Assembly (NCBI GenBank): GCA_022571985.1
Contig: JACZWU010000001.1
Location: forward strand, 343,501 to 407,500
Length of the DNA stretch: 64,000 nt
Origin: Candidatus Zixiibacteriota bacterium
Lineage (GTDB): Bacteria > Zixibacteria > MSB-5A5 > GN15 > FEB-12
Reading direction: 5' to 3'
The position numbers and the translations under genes were made by a program. Below the pieces are notes generated by a model. That model was not told where the DNA came from. It was given only the letters and a program-made list of their open reading frames with translations, and made no database searches. Positions within the stretch are counted from its first letter, which is position 1. Each line of letters begins with the position of its first letter. Positions 1-9,897 of the stretch are shown here, in pieces.

Positions 1-2299
1 TGAAATTATATCTGCGGCCGTCGATCGGACCTGAAATATCCCACAGAGAGTTATCATAGACCCAGCTGACGTAGTTTGTCAGCAGAAAAGTTTCGCGGCT
101 TTTGATTCCGAAGCGGAAGTCGCGCTTGGAATATCTGGCGGTGGTGGTAAAATCGACCCGGTGAAATTTCGACATCGGATAGCTGAAGAGCGAAAGTGCG
201 CCGACCTGCCTTTCAAAAAAGAAAAGGTCGAAGTCGTTATAATATTCGTTGTAGAGATGAAAAAAGCCGACGCCCCAGTTTAACTGATTTTTGCGGTTGA
301 TATAAGTTACACCGACATTAAATGATTGCAGCAGCTGATCTTTGGTTCGGGCAGTGTTACTCAGCAGAAAATGATAAGCATGATTTCCCAGCATATCGGA
401 TATAGCCACCTGCATCCCTCCCTGGGAACCATAGACCGGGTCAAATCCGATAGCGGACTGGGCGATATCAAAGGAGAAGTCGGTATCGTATTTTATCGAA
501 GTATTTGAGACTGCCCTCGATATTTTTTTGGGCTGCCAGCTGTTTTCTTTTGATGCCAGCGGCTGGGATATTTCTATTGGCTCAGGCGCTATTTCCATCT
601 GGTAAATTTGAAATGACATATCCTGGTAGCCGGTGTAGAATAGTTTGCTTTTATCGGGCGAAAGGCGCGGGTCGAATGCTCCCGTTACATAGGTTGACTG
701 CTGTGTCAGGGTGCCGTCGTTTGACAGCTTGAACAGGTTAAAAGTACCGCCGCGATCCGATGAAAAATAGAGACCGTCCTCGGCCGCTTCCGGCGACTGG
801 TCGCGAAAAGGACCGAAGGTCAGCTGCCTGATAGTCGATGTCGCCAGATCGTATTCAAAAATATTGAGCGCACCCGCCGGGCCATCAATAGCTCTGTCTG
901 AAGAAAATAAAATTGAACTGCCATCGAACGAAAAAGCCGGGTCGATGTCATAGTATATGTCCGCTATCAGTCTGTCGTAGGCGCCTGTTTCCAACTCGAG
1001 CAGATAAATATCTGAGATGCCGTCGGTGCCCATGCCTGTAAATACTATTCTCGTGCCGTCGGGTGAGAATCTGGGAGAACGAGCGGCCGCCAGAGAATCA
1101 AATTCAAAGCGGCGGACAACTTTACTTTTGTGAATATCATAAAGGTAAATGACATCTTTTTCTTTTGATTTTGATGAAAAAACTATCAGCCCTGAATTAT
1201 TGGCGTCGATTCCCGAACGAAGCAGATGCAATGATTCAAAATCCGAAGAGCGCTCTCCTTTGATGAGGGTCTTGATCTTTCGCTTTGGTCCGTCAAGCGA
1301 CAACAGATAAAGCCCCGAATAGCCGAGCTTGTTGGCTTTGAAAACAAGATAATCTTTTTCTGTATCATCTCTAGTCAGCCGGATGGGAACACCTTTGACT
1401 GCGAAGCCATCTCTGACAACTCGCCTGGAGTCCATCTTGGGCAGCCCCAGCTCTGCTATCTGCGGAAAATATTTTTTCTTCAGGGAATACTCCCACTTCT
1501 TCGAGAGCGTGGCCAGATTATCCCCGAGTGTTATCTGAACTACCTGATCAAAAGTTTTGCCTTTGTACCAGTTATCAAAAATACGAGCAAGTTTATCTTC
1601 GCCGTAGGCGGAGTCTATAAACTGGCAGATAGATTCACCCAGCTTATACATAAAGAATGTGCCTTGCACCCGCCACAACTGGGGAATAGAAAACAGTCTG
1701 CCGCCTACCACCATATCTTTGACTATCATGTCAGCCTCGGTATCCCATTTTTTCGACCAGAACTCGGCTAAGCCTTCGGTGAACCAGAGCGGCGGCCTGG
1801 CTACGCGTCTCGATGTCTGCCGGTTGTAGGCGGCATCAAGCAGGTCCAGCGTAAAGACATGCACTAACTCGTGTCTGATGACATGGTCAAAATCGTGGTA
1901 AGAACCGTGGAAAGGCAGCACTACCCTGCCTTTGATAAATTCCGTAAATCCGGCTACACCTTCGGGGAGAATTCCGGGCACTATGTTTGTCTGCGAAAAA
2001 TAGTTGGGTGACGAATAAATAATAAACGGCGTCTTATGCTTCAGTTCATGATTGAATCTGATTGCTAATTCGCGGTAGGAGTCTTCTGCAATCTGAGCGG
2101 CAATCTGGGCGATTTCGTGTTCGTCTGTATAAAAGTAAATCCTGAAATGCTCGGTAGTCATTATTTGCCAGTCAAAATCAGTATACTGGACCTTGTTTTT
2201 GCCGAAGTAGAATTGTGCTAAGACAGCGGAAGGACAAAATGATATAGCTGTGATCAGAGCCAGAATCAGAGTCAGAAATTTGAGTTTTAATTTGCACAT
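1..2299 (-). CDS. Peptidase MA-like / WD40-like propeller / outer-membrane barrel protein (3' end cut off by window)
   Basis: This gene is absent from the ORF track because it runs off the left edge. I translated it from ATG at 2299 without meeting a stop. The N-terminus is a signal peptide (MCKLKLKFLTLILALITA). A zinc-protease-like domain follows, with HELVH and a downstream WFTEGLAEFW that would give the third ligand, as in peptidase MA/gluzincin families. Next come TolB/PD40-type propeller blades (SPRFSPDGTRIVFTG, DPAFSFDGSSILFSSD, DPRLSPDKSKLFYTG). The remaining part alternates aromatic and polar residues like an outer-membrane beta-barrel. It is probably a cell-surface or periplasmic protein; the substrate is unknown. 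The family calls rest on motifs only. Confidence 0.8.
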   Translation of the reverse strand, partial: MCKLKLKFLTLILALITAISFCPSAVLAQFYFGKNKVQYTDFDWQIMTTEHFRIYFYTDEHEIAQIAAQIAEDSYRELAIRFNHELKHKTPFIIYSSPNYFSQTNIVPGILPEGVAGFTEFIKGRVVLPFHGSYHDFDHVIRHELVHVFTLDLLDAAYNRQTSRRVARPPLWFTEGLAEFWSKKWDTEADMIVKDMVVGGRLFSIPQLWRVQGTFFMYKLGESICQFIDSAYGEDKLARIFDNWYKGKTFDQVVQITLGDNLATLSKKWEYSLKKKYFPQIAELGLPKMDSRRVVRDGFAVKGVPIRLTRDDTEKDYLVFKANKLGYSGLYLLSLDGPKRKIKTLIKGERSSDFESLHLLRSGIDANNSGLIVFSSKSKEKDVIYLYDIHKSKVVRRFEFDSLAAARSPRFSPDGTRIVFTGMGTDGISDIYLLELETGAYDRLIADIYYDIDPAFSFDGSSILFSSDRAIDGPAGALNIFEYDLATSTIRQLTFGPFRDQSPEAAEDGLYFSSDRGGTFNLFKLSNDGTLTQQSTYVTGAFDPRLSPDKSKLFYTGYQDMSFQIYQMEIAPEPIEISQPLASKENSWQPKKISRAVSNTSIKYDTDFSFDIAQSAIGFDPVYGSQGGMQVAISDMLGNHAYHFLLSNTARTKDQLLQSFNVGVTYINRKNQLNWGVGFFHLYNEYYNDFDLFFFERQVGALSLFSYPMSKFHRVDFTTTARYSKRDFRFGIKSRETFLLTNYVSWVYDNSLWDISGPIDGRRYNF

Positions 2300-2470: not shown

Positions 2471-4060
2471 TCATTTATGAACATACTTATTTTCCAGAGT
2501 TTCAACCCTGGCCACAGCCGCCAAGAGGTTGTCGCATAGTAAGTTACCAAGCCCTTCCTGGTCCTGCGGCAGTTTCCTGCTATTCTCCCGGCCCTGACCT
2601 GTCAAGACCAGAAAATGACCCGCTCCGATTACCCGGCCAAGATTGAGATCGTCCAGTTTATCACCAATAACGTAAGATTTGCGCAGGTCAATATTATGCT
2701 CCAGAGCGGCCTTCTCTGCCATGCCACCGGCCGGTTTTCTACAATCACAGCTAAACGAGTATTCTGCTACCGCTCCGCCGGGATAGTGTGGGCAATATTC
2801 GATGGCATCGATTTTGATATTTTGCTCTGCCAGTTTTTGCTCTAAAGCAGCATTGAATTTTTTCATCTTATCAATGCCAAAGTATCCCCGGGCCACACCT
2901 GACTGGTTGGTGACGATTATTAATTTAAATCCTAACTCCTGAGCCTTTTTAAGAGCTTCAATCGAGCCGTTTTCAAATTCAATGTTGGCCGGGTCCGAAT
3001 CAAAGGGCTTATCTACTATAACAGTACCGTCGCGGTCAACGAACAGAGCTTTGGTCATCTTCAAACGCATTGCAATCAGCCTGCCTGCTTTTTTAATGAC
3101 CTCCGGCGGTTCAATCTGAGTAAAACAGTATTGTTCTTTTTGGAAGCAGGCCTTATCGCCATGCAAAGAACAGGGACGGCAGGAAACATCAGCTTGAATA
3201 ATTTCATCAAGCAGCCCCCTTGGCTCGAAGCCCAGCGCCGGATGGGTCGGACCAAAAATTGAAATCACCGGCGTTCCGACTGCCGAAGAAAGATGAGCGA
3301 TGCCTGAATCATTGGCGATTGTAATAGTCGCTTCGGAAATTATTGAAGCCAGCTCTGCTATCGGATGATTGCTTAACAAGCTAAGCTTGTCTTCGGGGAT
3401 TTGTTCTTTGAGACTGGCCGGAGTTTCGTCTTTCTCGGTGGCAGCCCAGATGATTTTTGCCTGATGGGAATGGTGAAGTTTAACGGCAACCTCGGCGAAT
3501 TTCTCAACCGGCCATTGTTTGTTTTTAAAAGCGGCACCGGCAGCAATTACAACCGTGGGATGCTCGGCTGCGATTATTCCCTTGATTTCTTGAAAAACCG
3601 GCCGGCGGGCAGGCGCTGCCAGACCGAGCTCTAGCAGGCAATCGTTATACTTGTCTATTGAATGGGTATGGGTATTGCCGTTTGTTGCGGTGAAATCTTT
3701 GAACCGTACAATACGCTGTCTGGCGCTGCGATTTCTGGGGTAAACAACTTTTTGTCCGGCAGTCAGAACTGTTCTGGCCAGTGATGACCTGAAATTGCCG
3801 TGCAAATCTACTATGATATCGAAGTTCTGCTGCTCCAGATATTTCAGGAGCAATAATTGTTCTGTAAACTTTCCTGATTCCGGCAGCAGCGCAATTTCAT
3901 CGACGGTGCCAAACATTTTTACTATCTGCCGGTACTTAGGTTTGGTCAGAAAAGTTATATGACTCTGCGGATATCCGATTTTCAGATTGAGGACTGTCGG
4001 GGAGGATAGAATGATGTCGCCCAGCGAACTGAAACGAATTACTAAAATTTTTCGGTTCAT
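2471..4060 (-). CDS. Fusion: glycosyltransferase family 9 (heptosyltransferase-like) + D,D-heptose 1,7-bisphosphate 7-phosphatase (GmhB-like)
   Basis: Residues 1-330 are a GT9/ADP-heptose:LPS heptosyltransferase-type domain, starting MNRKILVIRFSSLGDIILSS and carrying NDSGIAHLSSAVGTPVISIF in the C-terminal nucleotide-sugar lobe. Residues ~335-515 are a HAD phosphatase of the GmhB type. They show the catalytic VDRDGT (Asp342/Asp344), IIVTNQSG, a zinc-like cluster CPHYPGG...CDCRKP, and GDKLDDL. GmhB dephosphorylates heptose 1,7-bisphosphate on the way to ADP-heptose, and GT9 enzymes transfer heptose to the LPS core. One polypeptide could therefore hold an early and a late step of inner-core synthesis. 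The gene begins 1 nt after the uppP stop, so the two are probably co-translated. The exact acceptor sugar is inferred. Confidence 0.88.
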   Translation of the reverse strand: MNRKILVIRFSSLGDIILSSPTVLNLKIGYPQSHITFLTKPKYRQIVKMFGTVDEIALLPESGKFTEQLLLLKYLEQQNFDIIVDLHGNFRSSLARTVLTAGQKVVYPRNRSARQRIVRFKDFTATNGNTHTHSIDKYNDCLLELGLAAPARRPVFQEIKGIIAAEHPTVVIAAGAAFKNKQWPVEKFAEVAVKLHHSHQAKIIWAATEKDETPASLKEQIPEDKLSLLSNHPIAELASIISEATITIANDSGIAHLSSAVGTPVISIFGPTHPALGFEPRGLLDEIIQADVSCRPCSLHGDKACFQKEQYCFTQIEPPEVIKKAGRLIAMRLKMTKALFVDRDGTVIVDKPFDSDPANIEFENGSIEALKKAQELGFKLIIVTNQSGVARGYFGIDKMKKFNAALEQKLAEQNIKIDAIEYCPHYPGGAVAEYSFSCDCRKPAGGMAEKAALEHNIDLRKSYVIGDKLDDLNLGRVIGAGHFLVLTGQGRENSRKLPQDQEGLGNLLCDNLLAAVARVETLENKYVHK

Positions 4061-4834
4061 TTAGGAGAAAAGATACCAGCCTGAGGCACCGGCAGCAAAG
4101 CAATAATAGGCAAAATATTGGAATCGTCCTTTTCTGATAATTGACAGCAGCAGACGAATAGCTGCCAGAGAAGAAACAAAAGCCACCATAGCGCCGGCCA
4201 GATAAGCCAGCATCATATCAGAGTCACTGGCCAGTATATCGTCAAACTTAAAGATAGTCGCTCCGATAATTGCCGGAATCGCCAGCAGAAAAGAAAATTC
4301 TGCCGCTTTGGATGGCTCGATTTTAAGCAGCATGCCAATTGCAATAGTTGAACCTGAACGAGAGATTCCCGGCAAAATAGCCAGCGACTGTGCCAGGCCT
4401 ATCAAAATGGCTCGTTTGCCGTCGACCTCTTGACTGCCGGTATTGGTCAGCCTTGTCGAAAGAAGAATAAAGCCTGTTACAATCAGCATTGACGAAGTAA
4501 AGAGAGCCGACGAAAAAACAGAATCGATAAAACTCTCAAAAAAAACTCCTGCCATAGCAGCCGGCACAGTGGCCATTGCCAGAAAAAGAATCTCTTTTTT
4601 GTGGCTGACTTTATCTTTCGAAAAAAGTGACAAGGTCAGTGACCAGAGTTTACTCCGAAAATAAATGAAAATAGCCAGCAGTGAGCCTAAGTGTACTAAA
4701 ATTTCGAAAGTTACTCCTTCGGAATTAACACCGAGAAGTTCCTGAGCCAGGACTAAGTGTCCGGACGAAGATATCGGCAGAAACTCTGTCAGCCCCTGTA
4801 GTAGCCCCAGTATTATAGCGTCAAGATATGACAT
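4061..4834 (-). CDS. uppP: Undecaprenyl-diphosphatase
   Basis: BacA/UppP-type integral membrane phosphatase that recycles undecaprenyl pyrophosphate to the monophosphate carrier for peptidoglycan and LPS. Both family signatures are present: LLQGLTEFLPISSSGHL near the N-terminus and LPGISRSGSTIAIG in the second half, with about eight hydrophobic segments. I take ATG at 4834 (MSYLDAII, 257 aa) rather than the TTG at 4870. The extra 12 codons of the longer frame are simply the stem and T-run of a terminator hairpin. No good Shine-Dalgarno is visible other than the hairpin's own GGGG. It pairs with the downstream LPS-type fusion gene. Confidence 0.93.
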   Translation of the reverse strand: MSYLDAIILGLLQGLTEFLPISSSGHLVLAQELLGVNSEGVTFEILVHLGSLLAIFIYFRSKLWSLTLSLFSKDKVSHKKEILFLAMATVPAAMAGVFFESFIDSVFSSALFTSSMLIVTGFILLSTRLTNTGSQEVDGKRAILIGLAQSLAILPGISRSGSTIAIGMLLKIEPSKAAEFSFLLAIPAIIGATIFKFDDILASDSDMMLAYLAGAMVAFVSSLAAIRLLLSIIRKGRFQYFAYYCFAAGASGWYLFS

Positions 4835-4860
4835 AAAAAAGCCCCGCTTAGCGGCGGGGC
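4835..4860 (-). terminator. Rho-independent terminator directly abutting the uppP start codon
   Basis: On the minus strand, GCCCCGC-CGCTAA-GCGGGGC is followed by TTTTTT and then immediately by the uppP ATG. It lies 25 bases after the stop of the small barrel protein gene (4886-5611), so it most naturally ends that transcript. uppP must then be transcribed by read-through or from a promoter inside or just upstream of the hairpin. Confidence 0.85.
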
Positions 4861-4885
4861 CTTGGTGCAAAAATTATTGTCAAAA

Positions 4886-8688: not shown

Positions 8689-8967
8689 ATTACCGATTTT
8701 TAATTATATTACGTATTGATTTATGTCGGTGAAAATGGCAGTTTGTTAAGAGCCGAAGCGCATAATAAATGAGTTATTTCAGCTATGAAACGCGGCTGCG
8801 CAAAGTTGAATTCTTTTGCAGTTGTAAAACAAAAAAACGAAACAGTAAAAGAAAAAACTTCAGCAAATGTTTCAAAATGAAATGAACAAATCGAGTTCCG
8901 CCCATAGCGGATGACTGGCATTTTTGTACTGTTAGAATTTAAGTCGAAAGAAGAAAAAAGTTGAAAA

Positions 8968-9897
8968 TTAGTGCGCACCTTTTCCGGTAAGAACAACCTT
9001 GACGGTCTTAAAAAGTATTACAATATCCAGCCAAATCGACCAGGTCTTAATATAGTTTAAGTCGTAGCCCAGTTTCCTGGTAACTGTTGCTTCAGAGGAA
9101 TCATAGCCGCCTTCTATCTGAGCCAGTCCGGTAATGCCCGGCTTAACAAGCAGTCTCAGAGAATAGCCGTCTATTCTGTCAGTCAGGTCAGTCACAAATT
9201 TAGGCCTCTCAGGTCTCGGACCGACCAGAGACATTTCGCCAGACAGGACGTTTAGAAATTGCGGAAGTTCATCAAGACGCATCTTTCTTAAAACAGCTCC
9301 GAACCTGGTGACTCTTTTGTCGTCCGGCTTAGCCCAGACCGGACCCGATTCTCTTTCGGCGTCATGAATCATAGTCCGAAATTTGAATAAAGTGAATGTC
9401 CTGCCATAACAATTTTCACGACGACGCTCTCTGCTGCGGCTGTTACCCACGCTGTCTTCGGAGCTGGTCCGTCTCCTGTCTCTTCTTTGGTTTTTGCCTA
9501 CTCTGGTCTGACAATAAAAAACAGGTCCCTGAGAATCCATCTTTATTAAAATTGTGATAATCAGACACAGTGGCAAAGTCAGTACGATGCCCAAAATAGC
9601 ACCAACTACATCGAACAGTCTTTTTACAATTCTAAAACCCAATCTGTCCAATGGTGTAATAATACTGTCCACTCGAATATCCGGCTTAGCTGAGTCAGCT
9701 ATTTCTTCACCCGTTACCATATTAAGAGAATTCCCATGACCAAAGTAATCTTTTCTGTTTTTAAATGTCAAGGTAACAGATTCCCTGCAGGCAGGAATAA
9801 CCTGTCTTGAACTGATTCTTTCCAGTTCATCAAGCAAGGTGTTTTCTTCTCTAACTAACTTCATAAGTGTATTCTCATAGTTTTTACGCTTAATCAT
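8968..9897 (-). CDS. Undecaprenyl-phosphate sugar transferase (polyprenyl glycosylphosphotransferase) with an Arg/Ser-rich insert
   Basis: About 309 aa. Bacterial sugar transferase core: membrane segment (FDVVGAILGIVLTLPLCLII), GPVFYCQTRVGKN, FTLFKFRTM, RLDELPQFLNVLSGEMSLVG with PRPERP, and KPGITGLAQIEG. Such enzymes load the first sugar-1-phosphate of an exopolysaccharide, O-antigen or glycan onto undecaprenyl phosphate. Between RVGKN and FTLFKF, where the family has only a few residues, there is a roughly 30-residue Arg/Ser/Glu-rich insert (RRDRRRTSSEDSVGNSRSR). The N-terminal ~90 residues are soluble and unfamiliar. I take ATG 9897 over TTG 9906. No other glycan genes are adjacent. Confidence 0.88.
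   Translation of the reverse strand: MIKRKNYENTLMKLVREENTLLDELERISSRQVIPACRESVTLTFKNRKDYFGHGNSLNMVTGEEIADSAKPDIRVDSIITPLDRLGFRIVKRLFDVVGAILGIVLTLPLCLIITILIKMDSQGPVFYCQTRVGKNQRRDRRRTSSEDSVGNSRSRERRRENCYGRTFTLFKFRTMIHDAERESGPVWAKPDDKRVTRFGAVLRKMRLDELPQFLNVLSGEMSLVGPRPERPKFVTDLTDRIDGYSLRLLVKPGITGLAQIEGGYDSSEATVTRKLGYDLNYIKTWSIWLDIVILFKTVKVVLTGKGAH

Follow-up and report, generated by a model that had tools for sequence, protein, structure and literature searches.

Fusion of a GT9 heptosyltransferase domain and a GmhB phosphatase domain in one predicted protein in an order of Zixibacteria

The fused gene and its surroundings

The window, a stretch of 64,000 nucleotides from a Candidatus Zixiibacteriota genome, harbors a minus-strand gene in which a GT9 glycosyltransferase domain is followed by a HAD phosphatase domain of the GmhB type. 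GmhB and the LPS heptosyltransferases are normally separate proteins. The features considered here are the following:

2..2299, minus strand: conserved gene downstream of the fusion, an ORF running off the window; assigned to cluster 0 in all 18 loci compared
2471..4060, minus strand: fused GT9-GmhB gene, a single open frame of 529 aa with its ATG at 4060 and its stop at 2471-2473
2474..3058, minus strand: C-terminal GmhB phosphatase domain, residues 335-529 (NCBIfam, phmmer, Foldseek, residue check)
3050..3124, minus strand: junction, residues about 313-337 (model, DNA, 27 orthologue junctions)
3071..4060, minus strand: N-terminal GT9 heptosyltransferase domain, residues 1-330 approximately (Pfam, PDB relatives, alignment A1)
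3125..3181, minus strand: four-cysteine loop in the GT9 domain, residues 294-312 (alignment A1, residue check, motif count)
4061..4870, minus strand: uppP/bacA, undecaprenyl-diphosphatase, directly upstream of the fusion (NCBIfam, DNA, gene order)

No internal stop is present anywhere in the 529-aa frame (4060 to 2471 of the window, minus strand), and inspection of the DNA at the GT9/GmhB junction revealed no relic of one. The first-pass annotation had located a HAD domain straight after a GT9 domain in one unbroken frame at 2471-4060; these coordinates are correct, the strand, which had not been given, is minus, and the uninterrupted frame is borne out. An AlphaFold model of the fusion, with a 27-sequence alignment as input, reaches a mean pLDDT of 88.5 and a pTM of 0.90, and in it a helix (residues 318-334) leads directly into the first HAD strand (338-342). 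The junction sequences of the 27 orthologues are almost constant in length within the host order. An internal start that would yield a free GmhB was considered and rejected: Met335 is kept in the genus but is absent from the majority of host-order sequences, and inspection by eye revealed no clear ribosome site.

The stop of uppP abuts the start of the fusion (TAAATG), and uppP adjoins the fusion in 17 of the 18 loci compared. On the other side, the homologue of the 2..2299 gene in locus L036 carries Peptidase_MA-like and PD40 repeat matches in Pfam. In 14 of the 18 loci the fusion is immediately followed by a radical SAM gene of the AmmeMemoRadiSam type (8760-9749, minus strand, in L036), which is missing in the host genus; it was discarded as a functional partner, since its family has no evident link to the fusion and the genus does without it. 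No heptose genes occur among the uppP, peptidase/PD40-type and radical SAM neighbors of the 18 loci.

The GT9 domain

Glyco_transf_9 (PF01075) matches residues 71-298 with an E-value of 9.8e-30 and 104.1 bits, compared to a gathering score of 22. Residues D15, K181, N250-D251-S252 and H256 are unvarying in the 27 orthologues (alignment A1), and we take them to be catalytic and donor residues from what is established for GT9 enzymes; the donor-site/catalytic region was aligned with WaaC. Sequence relatives in the PDB are 3tov, WaaC (2gt1, 6dfe) and WaaF (1psw), and Foldseek places the domain on 3tov, WaaC and WaaF, so that the GT9 name given earlier is supported by Pfam, by conserved residues and by both sequence and fold relatives. 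The domain falls below the NCBIfam cut-offs of all three heptosyltransferase models: I (TIGR02193, its best-scoring model; 107.6 against 185.3 bits), II (85.2 against 134.6 bits) and III (73.3 against 170.2 bits); the acceptor, and strictly the donor too, are thus putative. The host genome encodes three more GT9 genes, one of them over the heptosyltransferase II cut-off.

The domain also contains a loop of four cysteines (C294-x2-C297-x7-C305-x6-C312), kept in the 27 orthologues, one of which has a shifted cysteine in the first pair. A motif count showed the loop to be common to fused and split GT9 domains of Zixibacteria, and the identical pattern was not found in the Nitrospirota and Desulfobacterota rows. 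The pLDDT of the AlphaFold model is low at this loop.

The GmhB domain

The second half has HAD matches at residues 341-497 (Pfam), and the GmhB model PRK08942 covers residues 335-518 (E 4.6e-45; 153.4 bits with respect to a cut-off of 178). The other GmhB model, TIGR00213, gives 149.7 bits with a cut-off of 149.6, a margin of 0.1 bit. Escherichia coli GmhB (2gmw) matches residues 334-489 by phmmer (E 6.6e-35), and Foldseek aligns the half with E. coli GmhB 3l8e at a TM of 0.90. The HAD motifs are complete, D342/D344 in motif I (DxDGT), T384-N385 in II, K442 in III and G466-D467 in IV, with D342, D344, N385, K442 and D467 unvarying in the 27 orthologues (alignment A1), and the CxH...CxC zinc site is present (C423, H425, C438 and C440); these are presumably the catalytic and zinc residues, as established for GmhB. 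The earlier naming of the HAD domain as GmhB agrees with the motifs, the zinc ligands and the fold, and with two NCBIfam models of which one is barely cleared and the other missed. The zinc ligands are partly or wholly lost, with the DxDG motif kept, in the fused relatives L037, L038, L065, L211, L214 and L217 and also in the split L204-L206 and L210. In L092, L106, L117 and L120 a GmhB domain ends longer frames with no GT9 match, which may be GmhB fusions of another kind or frames whose start was set too far upstream.

The heptose pathway in the host genome

No other TIGR00213 match was found in the host genome, which is 97.6% complete, so that a search for another gmhB, proposed on first pass together with one for hldE, returned nothing besides the fusion. 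The HldE functions are split between two neighboring genes on contig 17, HldA and HldC, both above cut-off. A GmhA candidate on contig 2 is slightly below its cut-off (179 compared to 209 bits), as is the top-scoring match for HldD, on contig 9 (263 compared to 275 bits), which is probably HldD. WaaA (the Kdo transferase) and LpxC both exceed their cut-offs on contig 6. The LPS heptose set found thus comprises GmhA, HldA, HldC, HldD and the Kdo transferase, with GmhA and HldD under cut-off, and HldA above cut-off suggests the beta-anomer pathway. In this pathway HldC and HldD act between GmhB and the heptosyltransferase.

Distribution and origin of the fusion

In a search of 61 genomes most relatives gave full-length matches to the fusion, those of three congeners being 83-92% identical and those from the family and order about 37-52%. 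In a survey of GmhB frames covering 111 genomes of the phylum, GmhB is fused in all 63 host-order genomes that have a GmhB match (families f1-f4); one of these fusions is cut by a contig end with both domains still within the frame. Four host-order genomes gave no GmhB match in the 111-genome survey, and for one of them the separate 61-genome search had located the beginning of the fusion, where a contig ends. The fusion is real, and it is the rule of the host order rather than an oddity. The first-pass annotation had named two findings that would speak against it, a sequencing-merged stop and absence of the fusion in close relatives; the full-length matches in congeners and across the order show that no stop was merged by sequencing, in line with the intact junction, and the close relatives carry the fusion. 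Two further results lay beyond its reach: elsewhere in the class the two genes stand head to tail, and the fusion probably has more than one origin.

Outside the host order but within its class, gmhB follows a GT9 gene head to tail in 18 genomes of families f5, f8, f9, f10, f17 and f18, mostly with a spacing of -14 to +49 bases and often with overlaps of 4-14 bases; two f17 genomes show longer overlaps that depend on the start codon taken. In 14 genomes (f6, f12, f14, f15 and f16) gmhB is not directly beside such a GT9 gene, and in one further genome (f18) the locus is cut by a contig end. Fused frames reappear in f7, f11 and f13, and three f11 genomes (G089, G090 and G091; L207-L209) possess a second, free gmhB in addition to the fused gene. 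In a plasmid search, separate GT9 and HAD genes were among the best annotated matches.

In a tree of the joined GT9 and GmhB domains, made by a quick method, the host-order fusions form one clade (SH-aLRT 100) beside split pairs, the f11 and f13 fusions fall together with a split pair of f8, and the Nitrospirota fusions group with split pairs from Desulfobacterota/Myxococcota MAGs. A single event for all Zixibacteria fusions was rejected by an AU test of one clade (p-AU 0.0003; 0.003 when f7 is left out), the tested group having been chosen after the quick tree was seen. Five changes between the fused and split states are required by the tree, which by itself does not separate gain from loss. 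The rejection of a single clade implies either that fusion occurred several times, independently in the host order, in further Zixibacteria families and in Nitrospirota, or that fused genes were split again in some lineages. Other arrangements are also seen in Nitrospirota, the reversed order HAD-GT9 in L074 and a GmhB domain between two GT9 domains (GT9-HAD-GT9) in L082.

Proposed function

The best explanation, to which we give a probability of roughly 0.8, is that the protein is a bifunctional LPS-heptose enzyme that arose when a translationally coupled waa-gmhB pair fused, with the usual step retained in each half. We infer both enzyme activities from sequence: the GT9 half would use ADP-heptose as donor to add heptose to the growing LPS core, and the GmhB half would carry out the usual heptose-bisphosphate phosphatase step. 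The ancestor would have been a head-to-tail, translationally coupled GT9-gmhB pair that became a single gene, the fusion taking over from coupling and fixing a 1:1 ratio of the halves, and the plainest account of its retention would be that both halves still function. Since HldC and HldD act in between, the halves would work independently on different intermediates, and direct hand-over of a product from one to the other is unlikely. A functional reason for the physical coupling of the halves is possible, and its benefit might be, for example, equal dosage or heptose assembly at the membrane.

One addition to this explanation, rather than a replacement for it, is that the GT9 half keeps GmhB, and by way of GmhB also HldC and HldD, close to the membrane and so brings the synthesis of ADP-heptose to its site of use. 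More than one origin of the fusion would fit such a metabolon, as would the almost constant junction and the confidently predicted two-domain arrangement of the model, but the two steps do not follow one another, the genes for HldA/HldC, HldD and GmhA are located on other contigs, neighboring genes can fuse by chance, and this pair was adjacent beforehand; we regard it as unlikely. Repeated fusion might likewise reflect selection for coupling of phosphatase and transferase, either for membrane heptose assembly (flux control or less leakage of intermediates) or because the GmhB half also acts on the LPS core, a reading that we also regard as unlikely.

It is more improbable still that the HAD half is no longer a GmhB and acts on another substrate, such as histidinol phosphate or an LPS-core phosphate near the GT9 acceptor site. 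GmhB is related to histidinol-phosphatase, HisB models match the half at lower scores, a core phosphatase would suit fusion to a core transferase and, as noted, some relatives lack zinc ligands; nevertheless, GmhB models score 153 bits compared to 88 for HisB, the catalytic and zinc residues are all retained here, and the genome has no other gmhB and yet possesses HldA, the maker of the GmhB substrate. An artefact of assembly or sequencing, in which a missed stop or a frameshift joined two genes, is conceivable on paper through one indel because the pair is separate and overlapping in sister families, but with the fusion recurring in 63 host-order genomes, a junction of almost constant length and a single clade, its probability is negligible.

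The bifunctional heptose enzyme favored here ties an unassigned GT9 branch to LPS heptose metabolism, and a single phylum displays separate genes, an overlapping pair and a fused protein for two enzymes whose pathway steps do not follow one another. If the coupling is functional, it would be a new way of organizing heptose synthesis. No paper on a GT9-GmhB fusion was found by title or abstract in the open-access literature, and the domain arrangement may already be recorded in protein-domain databases.

Comparison with known systems

Each half is a known enzyme. The HAD half shares its fold, HAD motifs and CxH...CxC zinc site with E. coli GmhB (2gmw/3l8e) at about 35% identity; however, the latter is a free enzyme, whereas here GmhB is the C-terminal domain of a larger protein. 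The GT9 half resembles WaaC, WaaF and 3tov (2gt1, 1psw) in the two-lobe GT9 fold and in the donor-site motif (N-terminal Asp, Lys and NDSG..H), with 14-21% identity in structural alignments, and differs from them by the four-cysteine loop, the C-terminal GmhB and scores below the HepI, HepII and HepIII cut-offs. TibC carries iron-finger cysteines (PMC4358343) in a layout similar to that of the loop with a different spacing, and by this analogy only the loop is possibly a metal knuckle.

Among the Nitrospirota GT9-GmhB fusions (L071-L073 and L075-L083) the two domains likewise share one frame, but these proteins differ in their separate tree branch, their short zinc loop and a GT9 domain that does not have the four-cysteine loop and, as far as tree and sequences indicate, they are of another origin. 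Fusions within the heptose pathway are known from HldE, the bifunctional heptose kinase/adenylyltransferase, which likewise combines two enzymes from one pathway, a kinase and an adenylyltransferase whose steps precede and follow that of GmhB. Unlike HldE, HldA and HldC are separate genes here, and the fusion pairs GmhB with the final transferase.
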